A stretch of DNA of 19,552 nucleotides from assembly GCA_012841485.1 (NCBI GenBank), contig DUUU01000157.1:1-19552 (forward strand), given 5' to 3'. Positions 4,698 through 16,436 of this stretch are shown here, one piece after another. Made by a program: the position numbers and the translations under genes. The notes under the pieces are model-generated. The model was given only the letters and a program-made list of their open reading frames with translations. It did not search any database and was not told the DNA's origin. Numbering within the stretch: position 1 is the stretch's first letter; each line of letters opens with the position of its first letter. This DNA is from Armatimonadota bacterium. GTDB lineage: Bacteria; Armatimonadota; JAAZEB01.

Positions 4698-6119
4698 CTA
4701 TTCCATTTCAGGAACGACCCATACGCGGTCAATTGCCTCGACGAGTGGTTTGTCGCTCTCGATGAACACCTGGATCGCTGAGTGAAGGATGCCGGGAGTG
4801 AAACGCTTCTCGGCGGGGGCGGTGTCGCCAGCAGGCAGGGAAACGAGAGTGGAGTTCCACTCCCGCTTCATCACCCTGAGAAGGAAGCGAAAGTGGACGC
4901 GGGCTGCCGGGTCCTTCAACGCCGCGCCGAGGCGATAGGAGACGCCCGGCTTCACCCTGGCCGCGGCGCTTTGCCAGACGCGCTTTCCACCAACCCGGAC
5001 ACGCCGCCAGCGGTCGGGCACCCCCTCCTGCAGGTAGGAGAGGGTCGCATCGGGGTTTTCAACGAGATTGCCCGCCGGATCCGTGGGGGGCAGCGTGAAA
5101 TCGAGGTGGGCCGTCTTGCCCGCCATCAAGGTGATCGGGACGGACACCTGGGGCCGCGAGCCCGTGCGGTAGGCAAGCACGCGATAGGTGCCCTGGGGCA
5201 GATTGCGCAGATGGTAGGATCCACGCCACCCAACCGCCGGACTCTCGTCCGCCGTCAGCGCGAGCGTGCCGAACTCGGTGCCAAGGAGCACGATGCGCGC
5301 CCCGTGGTCATTGCGCAGGGGGATCTCGGCGGCGGTGACGGTGCCTGTCAGGCTGGCGCCCTCGGGCTGTGGCGCCAGTCCCAACGTAAAGAGGGTATGG
5401 AGCAGATCGGCCACCACGCGCGCGCATTCCAGGGCCGCCTCCAGAAGAATTGGCTCCACCTGGGCACGGTCGGGCTTGGGAGAGGATACGAGCGGAAGCG
5501 CCCGCTCGGCACTCTGCGCGGCGAAGGCGATCAGCCCCTCCATGCGCTGCTGCAGCGCCGCTAGCGCCTCGTCATCGGTGCGCCCCAGCAAGCGCGGGCG
5601 GTACCCGGAGATCGTGATCGCATCGCTCCGGATCCAGTTCTCCAGCTCGCTATGGTGCGGCGTCTTTGGCCTCGCGTGAGGGGGCGCGCCCGAGTCCTCG
5701 ACCAGGTGAATCAGCGGGCCCAGCTGGCGGCAGGCATTCGCCGGAGTCTCTGTGCGCAAGGCCTGTAGCGCCCGGCGGAAGTAGGCCGGGTAGGTAGCGC
5801 GCACTCCGGGCACGGCATGAGGGGGATAGCGTGGATGGGCAGGGATGAGCAGGTAGTCATCCGCGTAGAAGCTCCCCAGATCCTCGCCCTGCTGGTCCGG
5901 CAGCCAGGAATAGGCGATGAGCGCCGTCAGGTTCTCCTCGCCAAGCAGCTCCTCACAGCGCGCCCTCTCCGGGAGCACGGCAAGCGCGGCCTTGGTGATC
6001 TGCGCATGGGGTCCCCACGCCTCCACCCTCTCGACGCTCGCGCCGAGCAGGAGAAGGGTGAGAAGCAAGCCGGCGCATCTCAGCCTACTGCGGTGGTTTC
6101 GGGCCGAACGGTGTCGCAT
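4698..6119 (-). CDS. Secreted zinc phospholipase C / S1-P1 nuclease-like protein with C-terminal beta domains
   Basis: The protein is probably an exported phosphoesterase with a three-zinc site. Numbering here is from the longer possible start at 6170. The preferred ATG at 6119 is residue 18; it begins a compact signal peptide (basic, then LLLTLLLLGA) ending VERVEA before Trp52. In this superfamily the first mature residue is a Trp that binds zinc through its free amino group, so the predicted cleavage fits exactly. Other ligands are visible: H55, D92 (WLPDQ), H155-x3-D159-x5-H165 (HLVEDSGAPPHA), matching the spacing in phospholipase C, and H173-x3-E177. Residues about 272-362 look like a carboxypeptidase regulatory-like domain and 365-490 like a carbohydrate-binding-type beta domain. 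Nuclease versus phospholipase activity cannot be decided. The gene lies about 160 bases after the exporter gene in the same direction. A start at 6170, preceded by GGGAG, is also possible. Confidence 0.8.
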   Translation of the reverse strand: MRHRSARNHRSRLRCAGLLLTLLLLGASVERVEAWGPHAQITKAALAVLPERARCEELLGEENLTALIAYSWLPDQQGEDLGSFYADDYLLIPAHPRYPPHAVPGVRATYPAYFRRALQALRTETPANACRQLGPLIHLVEDSGAPPHARPKTPHHSELENWIRSDAITISGYRPRLLGRTDDEALAALQQRMEGLIAFAAQSAERALPLVSSPKPDRAQVEPILLEAALECARVVADLLHTLFTLGLAPQPEGASLTGTVTAAEIPLRNDHGARIVLLGTEFGTLALTADESPAVGWRGSYHLRNLPQGTYRVLAYRTGSRPQVSVPITLMAGKTAHLDFTLPPTDPAGNLVENPDATLSYLQEGVPDRWRRVRVGGKRVWQSAAARVKPGVSYRLGAALKDPAARVHFRFLLRVMKREWNSTLVSLPAGDTAPAEKRFTPGILHSAIQVFIESDKPLVEAIDRVWVVPEME

Positions 6120-6280
6120 CTCTGGGTGTCCTTGCCTTGCCGCGTACACCGCGCCACCACGCATCGCCATCCGGTCTCCCGCCGGGGATGTGGGCGGTCG
6201 CCAGATCCGGGCAATGGCCGCGGCATGGTCCCTTGTTCCCCATCAGCCGGCGCACTCCTCCCGCATCCAGCGGTATCGGC

Positions 6281-7081
6281 CTAACGCAGGATAAGGCGAA
6301 TCGCGACCGCGACAAGTGCGAGCGCGAGGAATCGCATCAGCCATGCCTCGCTGACGCGCCCGGAGAGCCCGGCGCCCACCTGAGCGCCAACAATCGCGCC
6401 CACCGTGATGGGGACCACGGGGCCAACGAGAACGTGGCCCAGGGCGAGGTGCGTACCCGCGCCGATGAGAGCGGAGAACAGGAGGATGAAGGTGGACGTC
6501 GCCGCGGCCACGTGAGGGGGAAAATGGAGCGCCTGAACGAGCGCCGGCATATGAATGATGCCACCGCCGATGCCCAGAATGCTGGAGAAGAAGCCAGCCA
6601 GTGCGCTGATCCCAAGTCCCTTCCACTCGCTGAACGCATACACAAACTCGCGGCCGGAGGCGTCGGTGACCCTCCGCTGTGCCGAACCGCTTCCCACCGT
6701 CTCCCGAATGGACCCAGGAGAGCCGGACGAGCGCGCCAGGAGGAGGAGAGCGAGCGCGGCAAGCAGCCCTCCAAAGAGCGGCGCGAACACCTCCGTCGAG
6801 AAGTAGCGCGTGATGAAGGCCCCCAGGAATGCCCCCGGCAAGGTAGCCAGGGCAAACCGCCACCCGGATCGGTAGTCGATCCGGCGCGTTCGGATATAGG
6901 AGAGCGTGGCAGAGGTGGCGCTGCACAAGACGACCATCAGGGACGATCCGATCGCCTGCTGAGGCGAGGTTTTGAGGAAGAGCAGGAGCGCCGGGACCAC
7001 GAGGAAGCCCCCGCCCACGCCCACCAGGGATCCGTAGGCGCCCACTAACAGTCCAAAGAGCCCAAGATACAGCGTGAGCAA
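6281..7081 (-). CDS. TauE/SafE family membrane exporter (sulfite/anion exporter-like)
   Basis: This is a polytopic inner-membrane protein of about 266 residues with roughly eight hydrophobic segments. Both halves carry the family's glycine-rich repeat: GSLVGVGGGFLVVPALLLF near the N-terminus and GFFSSILGIGGGIIHMPAL in the second half, each followed by a helix rich in Ala, Ser and Thr. A charged loop (GSGSAQRRVTDASGREF) separates the halves. Members export sulfite, sulfoacetate or other small organic anions; the substrate here is unknown. I chose the TTG at 7081 because an AGGGGG ribosome site lies six bases upstream, overlapping the gntR stop codon, and because the longer frame to 7192 would overlap gntR by about 100 bases. 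Only 10 bases separate the two genes, so translational coupling and joint regulation are likely. Confidence 0.85.
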   Translation of the reverse strand: MLTLYLGLFGLLVGAYGSLVGVGGGFLVVPALLLFLKTSPQQAIGSSLMVVLCSATSATLSYIRTRRIDYRSGWRFALATLPGAFLGAFITRYFSTEVFAPLFGGLLAALALLLLARSSGSPGSIRETVGSGSAQRRVTDASGREFVYAFSEWKGLGISALAGFFSSILGIGGGIIHMPALVQALHFPPHVAAATSTFILLFSALIGAGTHLALGHVLVGPVVPITVGAIVGAQVGAGLSGRVSEAWLMRFLALALVAVAIRLILR

Positions 7082-7091
7082 AGCGGGCCCC

Positions 7092-7817
7092 CTATCGCAG
7101 CTCGATCCGAAAACGACACCGGTCGCCGCGGAGGGTGCCCAAACGGAGCTCCACAGGATGCCTGCCTGGAGCATACGCCACGCGCTCGACACTCAGCGCG
7201 GGAGCCCCCGGGGGCACCTGAAGCAGCTCGGCCTCGTAGGCGCCCAGCGTGATCGCGCTGAAGCTCTCCTCTGCCAGCAGAATGCGAACCCCGCACCGCT
7301 CTTCCAGGGCATCGTAGAGCGCCCCCTGCGTGAAGTCCTCTTCTCTCAGCGGGGCCGCCACCGCCGCGGGAATGAGGCAGCTCTCCAAGACGACCGGCTC
7401 CCCCTCAAGCAGGCGCAACCGAGTGACGTGCAGTACGGGCTCGCCGGCCGGCTGCTCCAGGCGGCGGGCCAGGCCCTCCGAGCACCGAACCGTCGTCCAC
7501 TCCAGCACGCGCGAGGTCAGCTCCTGCCCGCGCTCGCGCGCTTCGCGCGCAAATGAGTAGAATCCCATCAGGCGCTGTTCCAGACTGCGCCGCGTCACAT
7601 AGGTCCCATCCCCCTGGCGCCTTTCCAGCCACCCCTCGTGGACCAGCTCCGTGATCGCGTTGCGGACCGTTCCCCGTGCCACGCCCAGCCCCTCGCTGAG
7701 CTCCGGCTCCGAGGGGATCTGCTGGCCCGGCCTCCAGTCGCCAGCCTCGATCTGAAGCCGTATCGCATCCTTGATCTGCTGGTAGAGCGGGATCTTACTC
7801 TCCCGGTGGAGTTCCAT
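7092..7817 (-). CDS. GntR-family (HutC/UTRA subfamily) transcriptional regulator
   Basis: This is a cytoplasmic one-component regulator of about 241 residues. The N-terminal winged helix is typical of GntR: IPLYQQIKDAIRLQIEAG, then RPGQQIPSEPELSEGLGVAR, TVRNAITELVHEGWLERR and the wing QGDGTYV. From about residue 90 the UTRA ligand-binding domain follows, with VLHVTRLRLLEGEPVVLES and a C-terminal strand pattern ending FRIEL. UTRA regulators sense small metabolites such as sugar phosphates, amines or histidine derivatives; the ligand here is unknown. The ATG at 7817 is preferred because GGAGG lies nine bases upstream (7827-7831). A TTG at 7847 would also be in frame but falls inside the operator and lacks a ribosome site. 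A promoter and operator directly upstream suggest autoregulation, and the exporter gene follows after 10 bases. Confidence 0.92.
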   Translation of the reverse strand: MELHRESKIPLYQQIKDAIRLQIEAGDWRPGQQIPSEPELSEGLGVARGTVRNAITELVHEGWLERRQGDGTYVTRRSLEQRLMGFYSFAREARERGQELTSRVLEWTTVRCSEGLARRLEQPAGEPVLHVTRLRLLEGEPVVLESCLIPAAVAAPLREEDFTQGALYDALEERCGVRILLAEESFSAITLGAYEAELLQVPPGAPALSVERVAYAPGRHPVELRLGTLRGDRCRFRIELR

Positions 7818-7835
7818 CAACACCTGCCTCCGCAC

Positions 7836-7847
7836 TTGTATAGACAA
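7836..7847. promoter_or_regulatory. HutC-type GntR operator
   Basis: TTGTATAGACAA is palindromic at 10 of 12 positions and contains GTATAGAC (7838-7845), an exact match to the published HutC-subfamily consensus GT-N-TA-N-AC. It lies between the gntR promoter and its start codon, about 14 bases downstream of the -10 box. An imperfect second copy, AACTATAC (7860-7867), overlaps the -10 box. This arrangement fits repression of the gntR-exporter transcript by its own product. Confidence 0.6.
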
Positions 7848-7860
7848 CTAAGCTTCCACA

Positions 7861-7889
7861 ACTATACCACGGGTGGAGGTCGGCGTCAA
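7861..7889 (-). promoter_or_regulatory. Sigma70-type promoter of gntR
   Basis: On the minus strand TTGACG (7884-7889) is followed after exactly 17 bases by TATAGT (7861-7866); both boxes match consensus at five of six positions. Transcription would begin near 7854, giving a leader of about 37 bases that contains the operator and the GGAGG ribosome site of the gene starting at 7817. Confidence 0.65.
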
Positions 7890-7951
7890 GAAAGCGGGAG
7901 ATAAACGCCGGGGTTCGGGAACCACGGCGTGGAACAGCGGTGATCGCGGGA

Positions 7952-10288
7952 TCAGCGAGCGCGGGTATGGATAGCGGACGCGGTCGCGATAGCCAGCAGC
8001 AGGCTGACGGCGGCGAGGGAGAGATAGAGGCCAAGGAGGAAGGTGACCGGCCGATAGGTCATCGTGACGGTGTGCCGGCCGGCAGGCACGGGAACGGCGC
8101 GGAGGATGTAGTTGGCCGCGAGGAGTGGCGCGGGCTCTCCGTCCAGGGTGGCCCGCCACCCCGGATAGAACTGATCGGCCAGAATCAGGAGCGCGTCGCC
8201 GGTCGCTTCCACCTCGATACGCACGCGGCCATTGCGGCTCTCGACAACCCGCGCCGATTCGGGGCCCGCGGCCGGCGCCAGGGCGGCCCCCGGCTCCTCC
8301 TCAAGAAGCGCAACGCGATCCAGCTCGAAACGCTCGTCCGCCATCGCCTCCAGCGTGCGCTCCGGGGGCTCCACGCGCGCCTGGTGAACGAGGAACGCCC
8401 GGGGCCTGGTAAACCGGTTCCGATAGAGATGCGCATCGGGGGAGCCAAGATGCTCCAGACGCTCGCTCTTCAATTCGGTGCCACTGAGCACATAGCCGGC
8501 GTTGAGGAAGTCGAGCCCGGGGGTATCGATGCTGCTGAAGCGGAGCCCGTTGCCCACGCTGACCAGCTTTCCCTGGTGGCGCGTCTCGACAAACTCGACA
8601 AACTCCCGGTAGCGGCGCGGGTACATGGCGTCTCCGCCCTGCACCTCGGGGAGGCCAACCACCAGGTTGCAGTTCGGGATCATGGCGTTCATGAAATCCT
8701 CGCCAGGGTCGGGAAGGGCGACAATACGGGCTTCGCGGCTCTGCTGCCGGAGGATGCGCAGCGATTCGGTTTCAAAGTAGAGCATCGCAGGATCCTGCGC
8801 CGGGTTGAAACGCATGCCGAAGAGGAAGAGATCCGCAGCGGCGAGCGCCGGAAGGAGGTAGGCCGCGCGCCCGCGCCCGGCGGTTCCTACAACGGCACCC
8901 ACGACGACCAGCGCGGTGGCGAGAAAGAGCAGAATGGCGCGCTCGACGTAGGGGGCGACGCCGTAGCTGGCCATCTCGCCCGCACAGAGAAGATAGACCA
9001 GAGCGATGGCGGTGAACGCGGCCAGGAAGAACCCGCCGGTGAAGACCGCGAGGCCGCGCCGGCGCTCGGGGGAGAGGCCAAGCACGGCATCCGCGCCCAG
9101 GGCGCCCAGACACGCGACCGCGAAACTGAAGACGCCCAGGAGCCGCGCCGGGTTGGAGAGCTGCTTGAACCCAGGCACCAGATAGTAGAAGGGCGCATAC
9201 AGCGGCGTGCCCAGCACCATCAGGAGCGTGCTCGCGGCAAGCAGTGCGAAAAACCACGTCTGCCGGTCACGGCGCAGCCACAACCCCGCCGCCGCGAGCA
9301 GGAGCGGCAACAGGCCCAGGTAGCCGCAAAACTCGACAAAGTTGATGTGCCCCCAGTAGTTGTAGTCGACGCTGTTGCCAAAGAAGTTGGGGGCCAAGAG
9401 GGTAACCAGCTGTTTGGCCGGCATCGCGGCGCTGAGGACTCCATCGAGCGATTGCCCGCCCGCGCGGTGGTTGTAGTGGCCCAGTTCCAGCGAGGGCAGG
9501 ATCTGGTGAGCGGCGAGCGCGAGCCCGATGGCGCCGGCGGCAAGGGCCGCGACGAGCGAGCGCCGGTCAAGACGGCTACGCCACAGCGCATAGGCGCCGA
9601 AAGCCAGGAGCACATAGACGGCGTACTGCAAATGCCCGCCAAGAAGCGACATCCCCAGCGGTAGCGCGGCGTAGAGCGCATGCCGCCTTCCCTGGCCGCG
9701 GGCGTATCGCTCCCAGAAGTAGAGGGCGAGCGGCAGCCATATCGTGGCGGCCACAGGCGTCTGATACTCGGCCCAGACGATGAGGAAGCCACAGAACATG
9801 AAGGCGATGCCGCCCAGAAGAGCCGCCGGCCGGCGGAGATCCAGCGCGCGCAGGAAGAGAAAAGTGAAGGCGCCCGCTAGGAAGATGTGAAGCGCGGCGA
9901 CATAGCCGTAGGCACGCGCCGGATCCATCACGTAGAAGAGCGCGTTCGGCGGGTAGAGCACCGCGGAGGAAACGTTCGCCAGAAAGGGCTGCCCACAGAA
10001 GGAGTCGGGGTTCCACAGAGGGATCTCCCCCTGTCCGATGGAGCGCGCGGCGAAGACGCGCCAGGGGAAAAAGAGGAGAACGGCATCCAGGAGCGGGTTG
10101 TAGATCCGGCGGAACTCGGGAAATTGATGGTAGGAATAGAGCCGCCACGGCTGCAGGCGCAGGAGAATATCCGCAGGGAGGAGCACCGCGCTGGTGAAGA
10201 GCGCGCGCCAGAAGAACGCCCCTGAGAGCGCCGCGAGTACTCCGAGGCACGCGGCATCGCGCGCGCGCCCGGAGCCCTGCTTCCCCCC
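7952..10288 (-). CDS. YfhO-family polytopic membrane protein (lipid-linked sugar transfer)
   Basis: This is a very large inner-membrane protein of about 780 residues with a dozen or more hydrophobic segments and a soluble C-terminal region. Family marks near the N-terminus are LLPADILLRLQPWR, then PLWNPDSFCGQPFLAN and YGYVAALHIFLAGAFTFLFL. After the membrane core, the C-terminal third is soluble, with a beta-rich stretch (VRIEVEATGDALLILADQF, YPGWRATLDGEPAPL) and a final helix. In Bacillus and Listeria YfhO relatives decorate lipoteichoic acid with sugars, using polyprenyl-phosphate-linked donors outside the membrane; the acceptor here is unknown. The start is uncertain. The open frame runs back to a TTG at 10390, overlapping the GtrA gene, and a GTG at 10369 is also possible. 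I list the TTG at 10288, the first one clear of the GtrA stop, but none has a good ribosome site. Confidence 0.85.
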   Translation of the reverse strand, partial: GGKQGSGRARDAACLGVLAALSGAFFWRALFTSAVLLPADILLRLQPWRLYSYHQFPEFRRIYNPLLDAVLLFFPWRVFAARSIGQGEIPLWNPDSFCGQPFLANVSSAVLYPPNALFYVMDPARAYGYVAALHIFLAGAFTFLFLRALDLRRPAALLGGIAFMFCGFLIVWAEYQTPVAATIWLPLALYFWERYARGQGRRHALYAALPLGMSLLGGHLQYAVYVLLAFGAYALWRSRLDRRSLVAALAAGAIGLALAAHQILPSLELGHYNHRAGGQSLDGVLSAAMPAKQLVTLLAPNFFGNSVDYNYWGHINFVEFCGYLGLLPLLLAAAGLWLRRDRQTWFFALLAASTLLMVLGTPLYAPFYYLVPGFKQLSNPARLLGVFSFAVACLGALGADAVLGLSPERRRGLAVFTGGFFLAAFTAIALVYLLCAGEMASYGVAPYVERAILLFLATALVVVGAVVGTAGRGRAAYLLPALAAADLFLFGMRFNPAQDPAMLYFETESLRILRQQSREARIVALPDPGEDFMNAMIPNCNLVVGLPEVQGGDAMYPRRYREFVEFVETRHQGKLVSVGNGLRFSSIDTPGLDFLNAGYVLSGTELKSERLEHLGSPDAHLYRNRFTRPRAFLVHQARVEPPERTLEAMADERFELDRVALLEEEPGAALAPAAGPESARVVESRNGRVRIEVEATGDALLILADQFYPGWRATLDGEPAPLLAANYILRAVPVPAGRHTVTMTYRPVTFLLGLYLSLAAVSLLLAIATASAIHTRAR

Positions 10289-11998: not shown

Positions 11999-12098
11999 CT
12001 AACGCGCGGATGTCGCAGAAGCCCCCCTCAAGCTCCAGGCCGCTCGCGCGGGGCTCGCCAGACCAGCCGTAGCCTATGCGAGCGGCAGGAAGGATGGG

Positions 12099-12158
12099 GC
12101 TGGGGCAAGCCCGAAAGGAGAGACGAAGAAGAGATACGCCGGGTGCGCTTGCCCCAGC
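12099..12158. repeat. Second perfect 12-bp inverted repeat, in the aminopeptidase leader
   Basis: GCTGGGGCAAGC (12099-12110) is the exact reverse complement of GCTTGCCCCAGC (12147-12158), with a 36-base purine-rich loop that contains AAAGGAG. It ends about 70 bases before the start codon at 12231 and could form a hairpin in the 5' leader. No T-run follows, so it is not a terminator by itself. Confidence 0.5.
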
Positions 12159-12230
12159 GCGAGCGCACATTGGGGTGCCGGGAGCCTGACCGCAACGCCG
12201 CTCCCATCTTCACCGAAGGGACGCTGCTAC

Positions 12231-14186
12231 ATGTTTCGTTCCGTTCTAGATGCCATCATCGGCGAGCTGAACGCCGGGTCCTGCCTCAGGGACATCGCGA
12301 ATCACTGGTCGTGCCGGTGCACCGTGCCCGGACCGGGGATGCGCCGCGCCGCGGAGATTCTGAAGCGCCGCTACGAGGAGAGCGGGACGACGGGCGCCGA
12401 GATCATCCCCTACCCCGCTGATGATCGCACCGAGTTCCTCGATGGCTCGCGTAATCCCCTGGAATGGCGTCCCGAGGATGCCTCCCTGTCGGTGGTCCAG
12501 CCAGTCCACGAGAGGATCTGCCGCTACGCCCAGGAGCCGCTCTGCCTCGTCAGCAACAGCACCGCCACGCCGCCAAGAGGCGTGACCGCCGAGGTCGTGG
12601 TGCGCAGTGGCCCCTTGCCGGCGACGGCTGTAGCCCCAGGCGAAATGGCAGGCCGGTTCCTGTTCACCGATCAGCCCGCGGGCACGGTGGAGGCAGCGGC
12701 CCGCAAGGCCGGCGCGCTTGGTGTGATCTCCGACTGCATCAGCCCGCCCTGGCTGGTACAGTACCCGCCGGTGCGCGAGCCGGAGGATGCTCCCGACCTG
12801 GTGATGTGGAGTATCTTTAGCGGCCGGCGCGATGACCGCCCCCTCTTCGGCTTCAACCTCTCCGTCCGGCAGGGCCGGCGCCTGCGCCGCCTGATCGAGC
12901 AATCCTCGGAGCCGGTGCGATTGCACGCGGAGGTGCGCGCCGAGTTGGTCGAGGGCTCTTCCGACTTCCTCCACGCCACCATCCCGGGCACGGATCTGGC
13001 CGAGGAGGAGATCTGGGTGCTGGCCCATCTCTCGGAGCCGGGCGCGCGCGACAACGCCTCCGGGTGTTGCCTGAGCGTGGAACTGGCGCGAACACTCGCG
13101 GCGCTGATCGCCCGGGGCGTGCTCCCGCCCCCCCGGCGCACGATCCGCTTCATGCACGCCGTGGAGGTGCATGGCTTCCTCCCCTTCATCGACGCCAACC
13201 GTGACCGCCTGGGCCGCCAGGTGGTTGCCGGGCTCTGCCTTGATTCCGTGGGCCAGGATCTGGTGCGCGGCGGCGGCTTCCTGGTCCTCTACCGCTCACC
13301 TGAACAGAACGCCTCCTTTGTTGACGGGCTGATGGAGACGCTTCTCGGCGCCGTAGCCGCGGAGCCGGCGGGGCGCTTCTCGCATGACAACTATGCCACC
13401 TTCCCCTGGCGCATCGCGCCCTTCTGGGGCAACGATGCCTTCATCTCGGATGGATTCTTCGATATCCCAACGCCGCAGCTCTCCACCTGGCCCGACCGCT
13501 ACTATCACAGCTCGCACGATACGCCCGACCGAATGAGCGCCAACACCCTCGGGCGTGTCGGTGCCGCTGCCGGCTCGTTCCTCTACCTCCTTGCCCGCGC
13601 CGGCGCCGCGGAAGCCCGCTGGTTCGGGCTGCTCGCCGCGGACGACTGGAAGCGCCGCATCTGCCGGGCCGTCACCGACGAGGTCACCGCAGCACTGAGC
13701 GAACCGAATCCCGAGGCGGCCGGCCACCTTCTGGCCTCCGTGCGCCATCTCGGCCTGCAGGCACGCGATGCCGTGATGCAGGCGGCGCGTTTCGCTCCGG
13801 GCGATGCCGGCGCGAGCGAGGCTTTGCACGCCCTTGCCGACGATCTGTCGGCGTTTGCGGAGCGCGAAGCCATCGGAGGGGCACGCCTGCTGGATCCCAC
13901 CATGGAGGTGGCCCGGCCAGCGGCTTCGGCTGGGGCGCCTGGCGGTGAGATCGTGGCCCGCCGGCGGCGCTGGCACGCGCCCTCACCGAAAACACTCTCC
14001 CCCGCAAGCCAGGAGCGCCTGGCCGCGCTGGGGCCGAATGCCGCACGCATCTGGGCCTGGATCAACGGGAGAAGGACAGCCCGAGAGATCGAGGAGCGCC
14101 TCCGCCATGGTGGACCGGTCCCGCTTGAGGGGATCGTGGAGTACCTCCGCGTGATGAGCGCCGAGGGCGCGGTCGAGATCCACTGA
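12231..14186 (+). CDS. M28/DUF4910-type aminopeptidase-like protein with PA-like insert and winged-helix C-terminus
   Basis: This is a cytoplasmic protein of 651 residues (no signal peptide), probably a zinc peptidase or amidohydrolase. The two-metal site of M28 enzymes is readable: H266 (VLAHLSEPGARDNASGC), bridging D274 in the same motif, E312 (AVEVHGF), D338 (LCLDSVGQD) and H429 (YYHSSHDTPDR). Residues about 115-170 (AGRFLFTDQPAG, then ARKAGALGVISDC) look like a protease-associated insert. Residues about 595-650 look like the small winged-helix domain often attached to DUF4910 proteins. The ATG at 12231 has GAAGGGA ten bases upstream. The glycyl radical enzyme gene follows 45 bases later on the same strand, so the pair is probably one operon. 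The substrate is unknown; a peptide or acylated amine that feeds the radical enzyme is possible (inference). Confidence 0.82.
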   Translation: MFRSVLDAIIGELNAGSCLRDIANHWSCRCTVPGPGMRRAAEILKRRYEESGTTGAEIIPYPADDRTEFLDGSRNPLEWRPEDASLSVVQPVHERICRYAQEPLCLVSNSTATPPRGVTAEVVVRSGPLPATAVAPGEMAGRFLFTDQPAGTVEAAARKAGALGVISDCISPPWLVQYPPVREPEDAPDLVMWSIFSGRRDDRPLFGFNLSVRQGRRLRRLIEQSSEPVRLHAEVRAELVEGSSDFLHATIPGTDLAEEEIWVLAHLSEPGARDNASGCCLSVELARTLAALIARGVLPPPRRTIRFMHAVEVHGFLPFIDANRDRLGRQVVAGLCLDSVGQDLVRGGGFLVLYRSPEQNASFVDGLMETLLGAVAAEPAGRFSHDNYATFPWRIAPFWGNDAFISDGFFDIPTPQLSTWPDRYYHSSHDTPDRMSANTLGRVGAAAGSFLYLLARAGAAEARWFGLLAADDWKRRICRAVTDEVTAALSEPNPEAAGHLLASVRHLGLQARDAVMQAARFAPGDAGASEALHALADDLSAFAEREAIGGARLLDPTMEVARPAASAGAPGGEIVARRRRWHAPSPKTLSPASQERLAALGPNAARIWAWINGRRTAREIEERLRHGGPVPLEGIVEYLRVMSAEGAVEIH

Positions 14187-14231: not shown

Positions 14232-16436
14232 ATGGGCACACAGGCGATGGCGCGCCCCGGAGCCCGGGGAGAGGCCGCACAGCGGCGCGTCGCGGAGGCT
14301 TACCGGGCGCTGCGCGAGAAGGATGTGCGGAGCACCACGCTGGAGCGCGTCCGCCTCTTAGTCGAGGCGGACGCGGCGGTCCAGGGTCTCCCCCAGCCGC
14401 TGCGACTCGGCCACGGCCTCACGTACCTCCTGGAGCGAATCGGGCTGCCCCTTTCGCCGGATGACCGGCTTCTGGGGCGGATTCACGAGGAGGTCCCGGA
14501 TCCCGAGGGCGAGCGGCTCTTTCAGGAAGCCGTCTCGCGCTGGCGAGGAGATTCGCGCCCCGCATGGATGCAGGATTCGGGGCACGAGTGCTTCGCGTGG
14601 GGGCGCCTGCTGCGTTTGGGGCTTGCCGGATTGGAGGCGTTCGCCCGTAGCGAGCGCGAGCGGCGCGAGGCCGAGGGCGCAACCGAAGCCACGCTCCACT
14701 TTCTGCAGGGGGCCGAGCTGGTCTATGCCGCCTTCCGCGCCTACGCGCGGCGTTACGCGGCCGCTGCGCGCGCCGCCGGGCTGGAAGAGGCCGGCGCCCG
14801 CTGCGCGGCAATCGCGGGGCGTCCCCCGCGCCACTTCGCCGAGGCGTTGCAGCTTCTCTGGCTGGTCGGCCACGTCTACTGCACGATGGTCGCGCGCAAC
14901 CCCACGCTCACCTTCGGGCGCCTCGACGAGCTCCTCCTCCCCTTCTATCGCGAGGATATCGCCGCCGGCCGGCTCGCTCCCGAGGAGGCCGGCGACCTGA
15001 TCGAGGAGTTCTACTGCAAGAACAACCTGATCCTCGGGCGGGGCGAGCATCAGATGGGGGGCAGCTCAGAGAAGGACACCGGCTGGCTCCGCAACCTCTG
15101 CTACGATGCTCCCCAGTACGTCGTCCTCGGCGGGCGCCGGCGCGACGGCGCCCCGGTCGCCAATGAGCTTACCCTGCTCTTCCTCGAGCGCGTGGTGCCT
15201 GGCTTCAAGAACCCGGTCATCGTGCTCCGCTGGACGGAGGACCTCCCGGAGCCGGCGTGGCGCCTCGCGTGCGAGAAGATGCGCGCCAACGCCAGCGTGA
15301 TGGTGTATAACGACGCGGCGGTCATCCCCGCTCTGGTGGATGCCGGCATTGCCAAGGAGGACGCGGTCACCTACACGATGCACGGCTGCAACTGGCCCGA
15401 TGTGCCAGGGATCCAGCGGAGCGTGAGCCACTGCGAGCCGCCGTTGCCGAAGCTCTTCCTCACCGCGCTGCTGGGAGACGAAGGAGAGGCGCCGCCGGAC
15501 CCGCCGGACATCGACGCGCTTTACACGCGTTTCTTCGCGCTCTTCCGCCGGGAGGTGGCGGAAAAGTGCGACGCGCTCCGCGCGCACCACGCGCGCTGGA
15601 ACGAGCTGGCGCCCGGTACCCTGCGCGTGGATGACTGCTTCCTGGATGGACCGGTGGCACGGGCACGCTCGTGGCAGCTGGGCGGGGTGCAGTATCACAC
15701 GATCACCTGCACGCTCCACTCACTCGCCACTACCGCCGACTGCTTCGCCGCCGTGGACGAGCTGGTCTTCGCCACGCGCCGCGTCTCGCTGGAAGAGCTG
15801 CGCGAGACGCTTCGATCCGACTTTGCCGGGCGCGAGCCACTGCGCCGGCTCTGCCAGAGAGCCCCGAAGTTCGGTTGCGATGACGAGCGCGCCGACCACC
15901 ACGCCGTGCGCCTGATGGAAGGGCTGCTCGCGGCGATTGATGAGGCCAGCGGGCGCGGCACGCCGGAAGCGGTGACGCTCTTTCCCTGCCTGCAGACGGA
16001 CATGCGCCATCGTCTCACGGGAGCGCAGACAGGAGCCACTCCGGATGGCCGGCACGCCGGAATGCCCACGAGCGACAACTCCTCGCCCTCGCCCGGCTCC
16101 TGCACGCGCGGGCTCACGGCGATGCTCCATTCCCTCGCCAAGCTGCCGCTTCATCGCATCTGCTCCGGCGCGCTCAACATCCGGCTGCAGCCGCGCCTAG
16201 TAGCAGGCGAAGAGGGCCTCTCGCGCCTGGCCGCGCTGCTCCGCGCTTACTTCCGGATGGGCGGGCTGCAGGCGCAGCTCTCCCTGGCCGACACGGCCAC
16301 GCTCCGCGATGCCCAGGAGCATCCCGAAGCACACCGCGACCTGGTTGTGCGGATCACCGGCTACAGCGCCCTCTTCACCGATATGACACGCAGCGCCCAG
16401 GAGGAGATCATCCGGCGGGAGGAACACGCCGGGTGA
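14232..16436 (+). CDS. Glycyl radical enzyme (pyruvate formate-lyase-like), unknown substrate
   Basis: This is an oxygen-sensitive cytoplasmic radical enzyme of 734 residues, slightly short for the family (about 750-850). The C-terminal glycyl radical motif is intact: RITGYSALFTDMTRSAQEEI with Gly710. The thiyl-radical Cys is C386 in YTMHGCNWPD. The family signature TGATPDGRHAGMPTSDNSSP (599-618) is also clear. The residue two after the Cys is Trp, where the known diol dehydratases, choline lyase and arylacetate decarboxylases have the catalytic Glu of GCxE. Pyruvate formate-lyase itself has a Cys-Cys pair, also absent. The chemistry is therefore not predictable from known subfamilies. A radical-SAM activating enzyme is needed, but none lies in this window. 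The ATG at 14232 has GGAG about ten bases upstream; an ATG at 14247 is an alternative. It is probably co-transcribed with the aminopeptidase gene. Confidence 0.92.
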   Translation: MGTQAMARPGARGEAAQRRVAEAYRALREKDVRSTTLERVRLLVEADAAVQGLPQPLRLGHGLTYLLERIGLPLSPDDRLLGRIHEEVPDPEGERLFQEAVSRWRGDSRPAWMQDSGHECFAWGRLLRLGLAGLEAFARSERERREAEGATEATLHFLQGAELVYAAFRAYARRYAAAARAAGLEEAGARCAAIAGRPPRHFAEALQLLWLVGHVYCTMVARNPTLTFGRLDELLLPFYREDIAAGRLAPEEAGDLIEEFYCKNNLILGRGEHQMGGSSEKDTGWLRNLCYDAPQYVVLGGRRRDGAPVANELTLLFLERVVPGFKNPVIVLRWTEDLPEPAWRLACEKMRANASVMVYNDAAVIPALVDAGIAKEDAVTYTMHGCNWPDVPGIQRSVSHCEPPLPKLFLTALLGDEGEAPPDPPDIDALYTRFFALFRREVAEKCDALRAHHARWNELAPGTLRVDDCFLDGPVARARSWQLGGVQYHTITCTLHSLATTADCFAAVDELVFATRRVSLEELRETLRSDFAGREPLRRLCQRAPKFGCDDERADHHAVRLMEGLLAAIDEASGRGTPEAVTLFPCLQTDMRHRLTGAQTGATPDGRHAGMPTSDNSSPSPGSCTRGLTAMLHSLAKLPLHRICSGALNIRLQPRLVAGEEGLSRLAALLRAYFRMGGLQAQLSLADTATLRDAQEHPEAHRDLVVRITGYSALFTDMTRSAQEEIIRREEHAG

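Follow-up and report, generated by a model that had tools for sequence, protein, structure and literature searches.

A glycyl radical enzyme subfamily with tryptophan in place of the Cys-loop glutamate, and its possible role in sugar breakdown

The window analysed here is a stretch of 19,552 nucleotides from an Armatimonadota bacterium (contig DUUU01000157.1 of assembly GCA_012841485.1), and our subject is a glycyl radical enzyme (GRE), P0001, of an oxygen-sensitive type, which it encodes on the forward strand. Both domains of the superfamily were detected in P0001, namely PF02901 (PFL-like; 240.8 bits against a cut-off of 24.3) and PF01228 (Gly_radical; 73.2 against 22.2). With these two Pfam domains, the radical glycine loop, the catalytic cysteine and a GRE fold, the protein is a member of the GRE superfamily. 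The gene and its salient features are listed below, with counts referring to 236 homologues.

14232..16436, forward strand: P0001, a GRE of 734 amino acids from the GCNW/GRGEHQM subfamily; uninterrupted frame, PF02901 and PF01228 above cut-off
14583..14585, forward strand: codon of His118, which aligns with HypD His160 and glycerol dehydratase His164; His in 236 of 236
15036..15056, forward strand: GRGEHQM (residues 269-275), a signature specific to the clade, in a loop longer than that of other GREs; Arg270 to Gln274 in 236 of 236
15078..15095, forward strand: TGWLRN (283-288), kept across the clade, Asn288 aligning with HypD Ser334; Thr283 and Arg287 in 236, Trp285 and Asn288 in 235, Gly284 in 233 of 236
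15384..15401, forward strand: Cys loop GCNWPD (385-390), with the thiyl-radical site Cys386, Asn387, Trp388 at the position of the CXE glutamate, and Asp390; Cys and Asn in 236, Trp in 232, Asp390 in 230 of 236
16029..16052, forward strand: TGATPDGR (600-607), a general GRE signature, from sequence and alignment
16350..16376, forward strand: RITGYSALF, the glycyl radical loop with Gly710; Gly in 235 of 236, the remaining row having a gap

The initial annotation of this gene had described both radical motifs as intact (Cys386 in HGCNWPD, Gly710 in RITGYSALF) alongside TGATPDGR, and had pointed to a tryptophan, rather than a glutamate, two residues after the catalytic cysteine (Trp388, in the context MHGCNWPDVPG). 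Comparison with homologues bears out these observations. We combined the best 120 of 262 matches to P0001 with the best 120 of 276 matches to a clostridial relative from locus L011; four were common to both lists, leaving 236 different proteins. Position 388 is W in 232 of these, E in three (P0130-P0132) and S in one (P0021), while residue 385 is always G, P or A and residue 387 always N. His118, Arg270, Gly271, Glu272, His273, Gln274, Thr283, Arg287, Cys386 and Asn387 are invariant in all 236, and 27 aligned rows share 63 invariant columns. Within the list obtained with P0001, 119 of the 120 proteins have CNW (HGCNW in 117, YGCNW in two) and the last has GCNS, a degree of conservation which, to judge from the alignments, lies far beyond chance.

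A frameshift or mis-assembly at 15380-15400 had been named as a possible source of the unusual motif. We rule this out, since Cys-Asn is kept in 236 of 236 homologues and Trp in 232, and since HGCNWPD recurs both in L001, a contig of an Armatimonadota metagenome-assembled genome (MAG), and in MAG contigs of other phyla. L001 is colinear with the window over 11.6 kb at 90.7% nucleotide identity, and its GRE is 90% identical to that of the window, with the same HGCNWPD.

Relationships within the superfamily were assessed with a tree of 46 rows chosen by us, 23 from the family and 23 from other GREs (HypD, YbiW, PflD, PflB, GrpM, a CutC-like protein, glycerol dehydratase and unlabelled genomic GREs). 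The test set beforehand for the initial proposal was a distinct clade in which GCNW is conserved; the sampled family indeed occupies one side of a branch supported at 100/100, its stem measuring 1.43 changes per column. RGEHQ is found in all 23 family rows and in none of the 23 comparison GREs, and the loop spanning residues 267-294 measures 28-30 residues against 4-20. Glutamate stands two residues after the cysteine in 20 of the 23 comparison rows, the exceptions being PflB and two genomic GREs, from L033 (genome G002) and from L060 (the second GRE there, 12034-14121). These last two have Cys-Cys loops (GCCN and ACCT) without the CXE glutamate and lie nearest to the family, with support of 100/99 for the larger group and 84/57 for their own pairing.

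P0001 matched 12 NCBIfam GRE families, the IslA and glycerol dehydratase models not being among them, and placement in a named family was rejected because all 12 scored below cut-off. The best match was the PFL2-3 subfamily (271.8 bits against 678.2). Lower scores were obtained for HypD (219 against 1100), CutC (200.2 against 1050), the sulfopropanediol dehydratases (216.2 and 195.9 against 1000), the arylacetate decarboxylases NF033715 and NF033718 (HPAD, indoleacetate decarboxylase; 139.1 against 1150 and 152.5 against 1100) and pyruvate formate-lyase TIGR01255 (73.1 against 994.2). Judged by sequence, P0001 is a GRE outside every named GRE family tested, and the family to which it belongs, CNW/GRGEHQ, is a real and coherent GRE subfamily without the CXE glutamate. 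The central proposal of the initial annotation, an uncharacterised GRE subfamily, holds on the same grounds; the activity and the different substrate chemistry that it also put forward are hypothetical. Two elements of equal weight go beyond it: the clade-specific GRGEHQM/TGWxRN loop, and a sugar-catabolic gene cluster among clostridial relatives. Among the openly licensed papers that the searches listed we found no account of a GCNW GRE, or of a GRE with a DeoC and lactonase cluster of this kind, which does not imply absence from print. As such, a GRE family that awaits characterisation is no rarity.

The three glutamate-bearing homologues, P0130, P0131 and P0132, restore a CXE-like motif (CNE) amid CNW relatives. 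A rapidly built tree of 74 rows, approximately 40 of them from the second list, places them as one group nested within the clostridial clade, and their glutamate therefore looks like a secondary return rather than the ancestral state. Trp388 is thus strongly favoured, not obligatory. The clostridial clade is not purely clostridial, as it includes P0151, a protein named as Victivallales.

The weight placed on the Cys-loop glutamate of known eliminases by the initial annotation is borne out by published work, in the portions consulted. Passages of the HypD paper assign catalytic roles to H160, D278, D339 and E436, report no detectable activity for H160Q, and describe alanine mutants of S334 and F340 as also inactive. 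The four catalytic residues align with H118, P224, A293 and W388 of the window enzyme, so that the histidine alone is kept, the other three being replaced by Pro, Ala and Trp; S334 and F340 align with N288 and P294. An AlphaFold2 model of P0001 (pLDDT 91.9, pTM 0.92) was compared with solved structures using Foldseek. The predicted fold is confidently that of a GRE, at 23-24% identity to glycerol/propanediol dehydratase. The closest folds were propanediol and glycerol dehydratases, level with choline lyase and HypD; 1,2-propanediol dehydratase 5i2g gave a TM of 0.80 at 24% identity.

Suggestions as to substrate come from 11 clostridial loci (L011, L014, L055, L060, L061, L062 and L082-L086). 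Members of the family occur in 5 of 391 genomes in the class of G011, 1 of 4 in the order of G191 and 6 of 245 in the order of G014, centre genomes included. Near the GRE we noted an SGL lactonase-family gene in six loci, an FGGY kinase in four, DeoC in three and a GRE activase in four. L011 presents the sequence MDR dehydrogenase, FGGY kinase, SGL, GntR, DeoC, activase and GRE, all in one direction; its GntR (open reading frame 5554-6306) is so labelled from its match to the GntR/UTRA protein of the window. DeoC exceeds the TIGR00126 cut-off of 117.3 in L011 (223.8 bits) and L014 (212.1), and the L011 kinase exceeds that of XylB (407.1 against 380.25). The SGL gene adjoins the GRE in L060, L061 and L082 and lies one to three genes off in L014, L062 and L011, the five other clustered copies being 62-73% identical to that of L062. 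Nine SGL genes were found in the 11 clostridial genomes, six of them in the GRE cluster. The MDR dehydrogenase is of one type in L011 and L062, with a remote one in L082. Outside the cluster, G011 and G014 each encode another DeoC; the clustered DeoC of G191 is its sole copy, and in G1394 SGL and DeoC lie approximately 3 kb or less apart on a different contig from its GRE.

Cluster-bearing members are spread across the clostridial clade of the 74-row tree, which fits an early association of the cluster with the GRE. Among the clostridial loci that lack the cluster, L084 has an aldose 1-epimerase whose end coincides with the start of the GRE, and L086, which holds the most remote member, has an alpha-L-fucosidase next to the GRE. 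In L060, a single frame at 6524-8929 reads through resolvase/recombinase domains into the later part of an FGGY kinase. The first part of the N-terminal kinase domain is missing where the recombinase reads in, and the gene appears to have been cut by a mobile recombinase.

Activases offer a second line of context. TIGR02494 matches 13 of 14 control genomes and exceeds its cut-off in three of them, for which reason the count was confined to over-cut-off matches. The GRE has an activase directly beside it in L006, L011, L062 and L082 and one gene further away in L060, and the family is therefore probably activated in the usual GRE way. In G001, the genome of L001, the Gly_radical domain occurs twice, and a single activase exceeds the cut-off. 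G004, a SAR202 MAG of 2.1 Mb and unknown completeness, gave a single Gly_radical match and no over-cut-off activase. Two genes upstream of its GRE, L004 231-1358 carries CTITCKHC and a Radical_SAM match below cut-off (26.0 against 29.5 bits).

We tentatively propose, at a probability of roughly 0.4, that the window gene encodes an activatable GRE of an uncharacterised subfamily which dehydrates a carbohydrate-type substrate to a deoxy-sugar, acid or lactone. Its most likely role would be a radical step in the breakdown of sugars or sugar acids, probably as a dehydratase that yields a deoxy-sugar. A radical-SAM activase would place the radical on Gly710, which would generate a thiyl radical on Cys386; this in turn would abstract hydrogen from a free sugar, polyol or sugar acid. 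Water would then be lost, the acid/base work that falls to the CXE glutamate elsewhere being done by His118 and probably by Glu272 and His273, the candidate residues in the clade-specific loop. The product would be a deoxy-sugar, deoxy-sugar acid or lactone, which clostridial relatives may pass to the lactonase, the FGGY kinase and the deoxyribose-phosphate-type aldolase. The lone gene of the window's lineage would need an activase encoded elsewhere. The least secure parts of this scheme are which substrate is used, in what order the steps follow, and whether the window's branch has the same role. One specific version, which we consider a long shot, is a redox-neutral dehydration of a cyclic aldose at the anomeric carbon, in which Cys386 takes the C1 hydrogen and the C2 hydroxyl leaves, yielding a 2-deoxy-aldonolactone to be opened by SGL in clostridial members.

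Several observations weigh against a sugar dehydratase. Firstly, the cluster is incomplete and its components are widespread. SGL was not found in five of the 11 clostridial loci (the L055 contig being just 3.7 kb long), and four of these genomes gave no match to it anywhere, while in control genomes TIGR00126 matches 10 of 14 and PF08450 8 of 14, DeoC and SGL being common in bacteria. Secondly, the clostridial SGL, DeoC and MDR proteins drew no BLAST match at 1e-10 in the window or in 13 related non-clostridial loci, and the remote FGGY kinase of L007, the only one there, is a glycerol kinase. Identity between the GREs found there and that of L011 is mostly 40-46%, for which reason the substrate may differ in the window's branch. 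Thirdly, no activase was found in the window, where open reading frames of at least 80 amino acids lack CxxxCxxC, and the single over-cut-off activase of G001 adjoins its other GRE rather than the window-type one. Finally, model confidence falls to a pLDDT of just 72 for residues 271-280, and we found no biochemistry for any family member.

The best-surviving alternative, though in our view an unlikely one, is an ordinary GRE eliminase acting on a small non-sugar diol or amino-alcohol, its base moved to Asp390 or Glu272. The clostridial cluster would then be a later recruitment, or the GRE there would use a small aldolase product, with little bearing on the window's branch. The nearest solved folds, the conservation of Asp390 in 230 of 236 homologues and the want of a conserved operon in the window and its branch are consistent with such an enzyme. 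So are known fucose/rhamnose microcompartment loci, as partially consulted (PMC4207490), in which a propanediol-dehydrating GRE is paired with an aldolase and a zinc alcohol dehydrogenase. Set against it are the loss of the active-site residues of known eliminases and the recurrence of carbohydrate neighbours, though scattered, in several phyla. Less probable still is a C-C cleavage like that of pyruvate formate-lyase, for example of a ketose or keto acid, which needs no CXE glutamate; PflB likewise does without it (CCVS), and a Cys-Cys loop lacking the glutamate is also seen in the nearest tree rows, those of L033 and of the second L060 enzyme. An inactive relic, for which the lost glutamate and the lack of a linked activase in the window's lineage might be cited, is very improbable given that Cys386 and Gly710 are conserved throughout, that 63 columns are invariant and that activases adjoin or nearly adjoin the GRE in L006, L011, L060, L062 and L082.

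Around the window gene itself the proposed cluster of GRE, SGL, FGGY kinase and DeoC is absent, and the window and the 13 non-clostridial loci yielded no conserved operon for this branch. Sugar-related neighbours include a GH4 gene, which lies no more than a few genes from the GRE in L009 and follows it immediately in L015, GHL10 in L003 and L005, a member of the ILVD_EDD sugar-acid dehydratase family and an epimerase in L015, and a fucose-isomerase match, below cut-off, in L003. Since these are scattered, the case for a sugar role is weaker still in the branch to which the window enzyme belongs. Other neighbours do not fit a sugar theme: ABC transporters, M28 and S41 peptidases, a histidine kinase and an MscS-type channel. 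The M28/DUF4910 gene upstream in the window lies within the stretch colinear with L001. L001, elsewhere colinear, lacks the segment at 6269-7944 (a TauE-type exporter and the GntR/UTRA regulator). TauE genes in both the window and L007 hinted at sulfonate chemistry, a reading set aside because the window's TauE is no direct neighbour of the GRE and lies in the stretch that L001 lacks.

GREs of the window's clade stand head to tail with a second GRE in two loci, a GCYE enzyme in L009 (5672-8008 and 7965-9705) and the Cys-Cys enzyme in L060 (9945-12101 and 12034-14121). The family appears sparsely distributed: one of 101 Armatimonadota genomes has a member (G001), 12 others with matches having GREs 31-35% identical, and samples of other phyla gave 1 of 288, 2 of 84, 1 of 251 and 2 of 64, at the thresholds used only those already known. 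The surveys of 288 and 251 genomes, like those in the class of G011 and the order of G014, scored the first two to four candidates per genome, and members may be missed.

Across several phyla this clade has Trp in place of Glu, keeps the radical residues and carries an invariant Glu-His pair in its longer loop, a combination suggesting that the active site of a GRE can be remodelled while the thiyl radical stays the same. Were the 2-deoxy-aldonolactone version true, it would provide a GRE eliminase that manages without the CXE glutamate, and uncultured bacteria from several phyla would have a new, oxygen-sensitive route into the metabolism of deoxy-sugars. The clostridial cluster of lactonase family, kinase, aldolase and activase makes the reaction directly testable, and the natural glutamate-bearing members P0130-P0132 form a built-in comparison.

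Among characterised enzymes, the eliminases with a CXE motif (glycerol/propanediol dehydratase, CutC, HypD and IslA) have their glutamate where Trp388 stands here. The B12-independent glycerol and 1,2-propanediol dehydratases (PDB 1r8w, 5i2a/5i2g), at 23-26% identity, differ in the glutamate of their CVE loop and lack the extra GRGEHQM loop, while HypD (PDB 6vxc; 219 bits against its cut-off of 1100) has Asp278, Asp339 and Glu436, whose equivalents are lost in the window enzyme. With respect to pathways, kinase with DeoC, and lactonase, act on 2-deoxypentoses in the known deoxyribose kinase/aldolase and oxidative deoxyribonate routes (PMC6365646); the parts consulted describe no GRE, and the link to the clostridial cluster is one we infer. 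In fucose/rhamnose microcompartment loci, too, a GRE is encoded together with an aldolase and a zinc alcohol dehydrogenase, but unlike the one here it is a propanediol dehydratase (PMC4207490, in part). Listed papers naming both GREs and deoxyribose, as far as the consulted portions extend, concern microcompartment loci (a DeoC-type locus, with GRE loci apart) and Pelobacter, not this cluster. The literature drawn on for the present analysis comprises PMC7077986, PMC8473560, PMC11574389, PMC6365646, PMC9594981, PMC4207490, PMC8156839 and PMC3543383. PflB resembles the family as a GRE without the CXE glutamate (CCVS loop), yet it is remote and its Cys-Cys pair is absent here. The genes of PflD and YbiW presumably lie beside aldolase genes in E. 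coli. By the titles of their structures (PDB 8id0, 8id7), PflD/YbiW are GREs with 1,5-anhydrohexitol-6-phosphates and thereby a precedent for GREs with sugar phosphates, although they retain a CVE/CIE glutamate of their own and stand apart from the window family in the tree.
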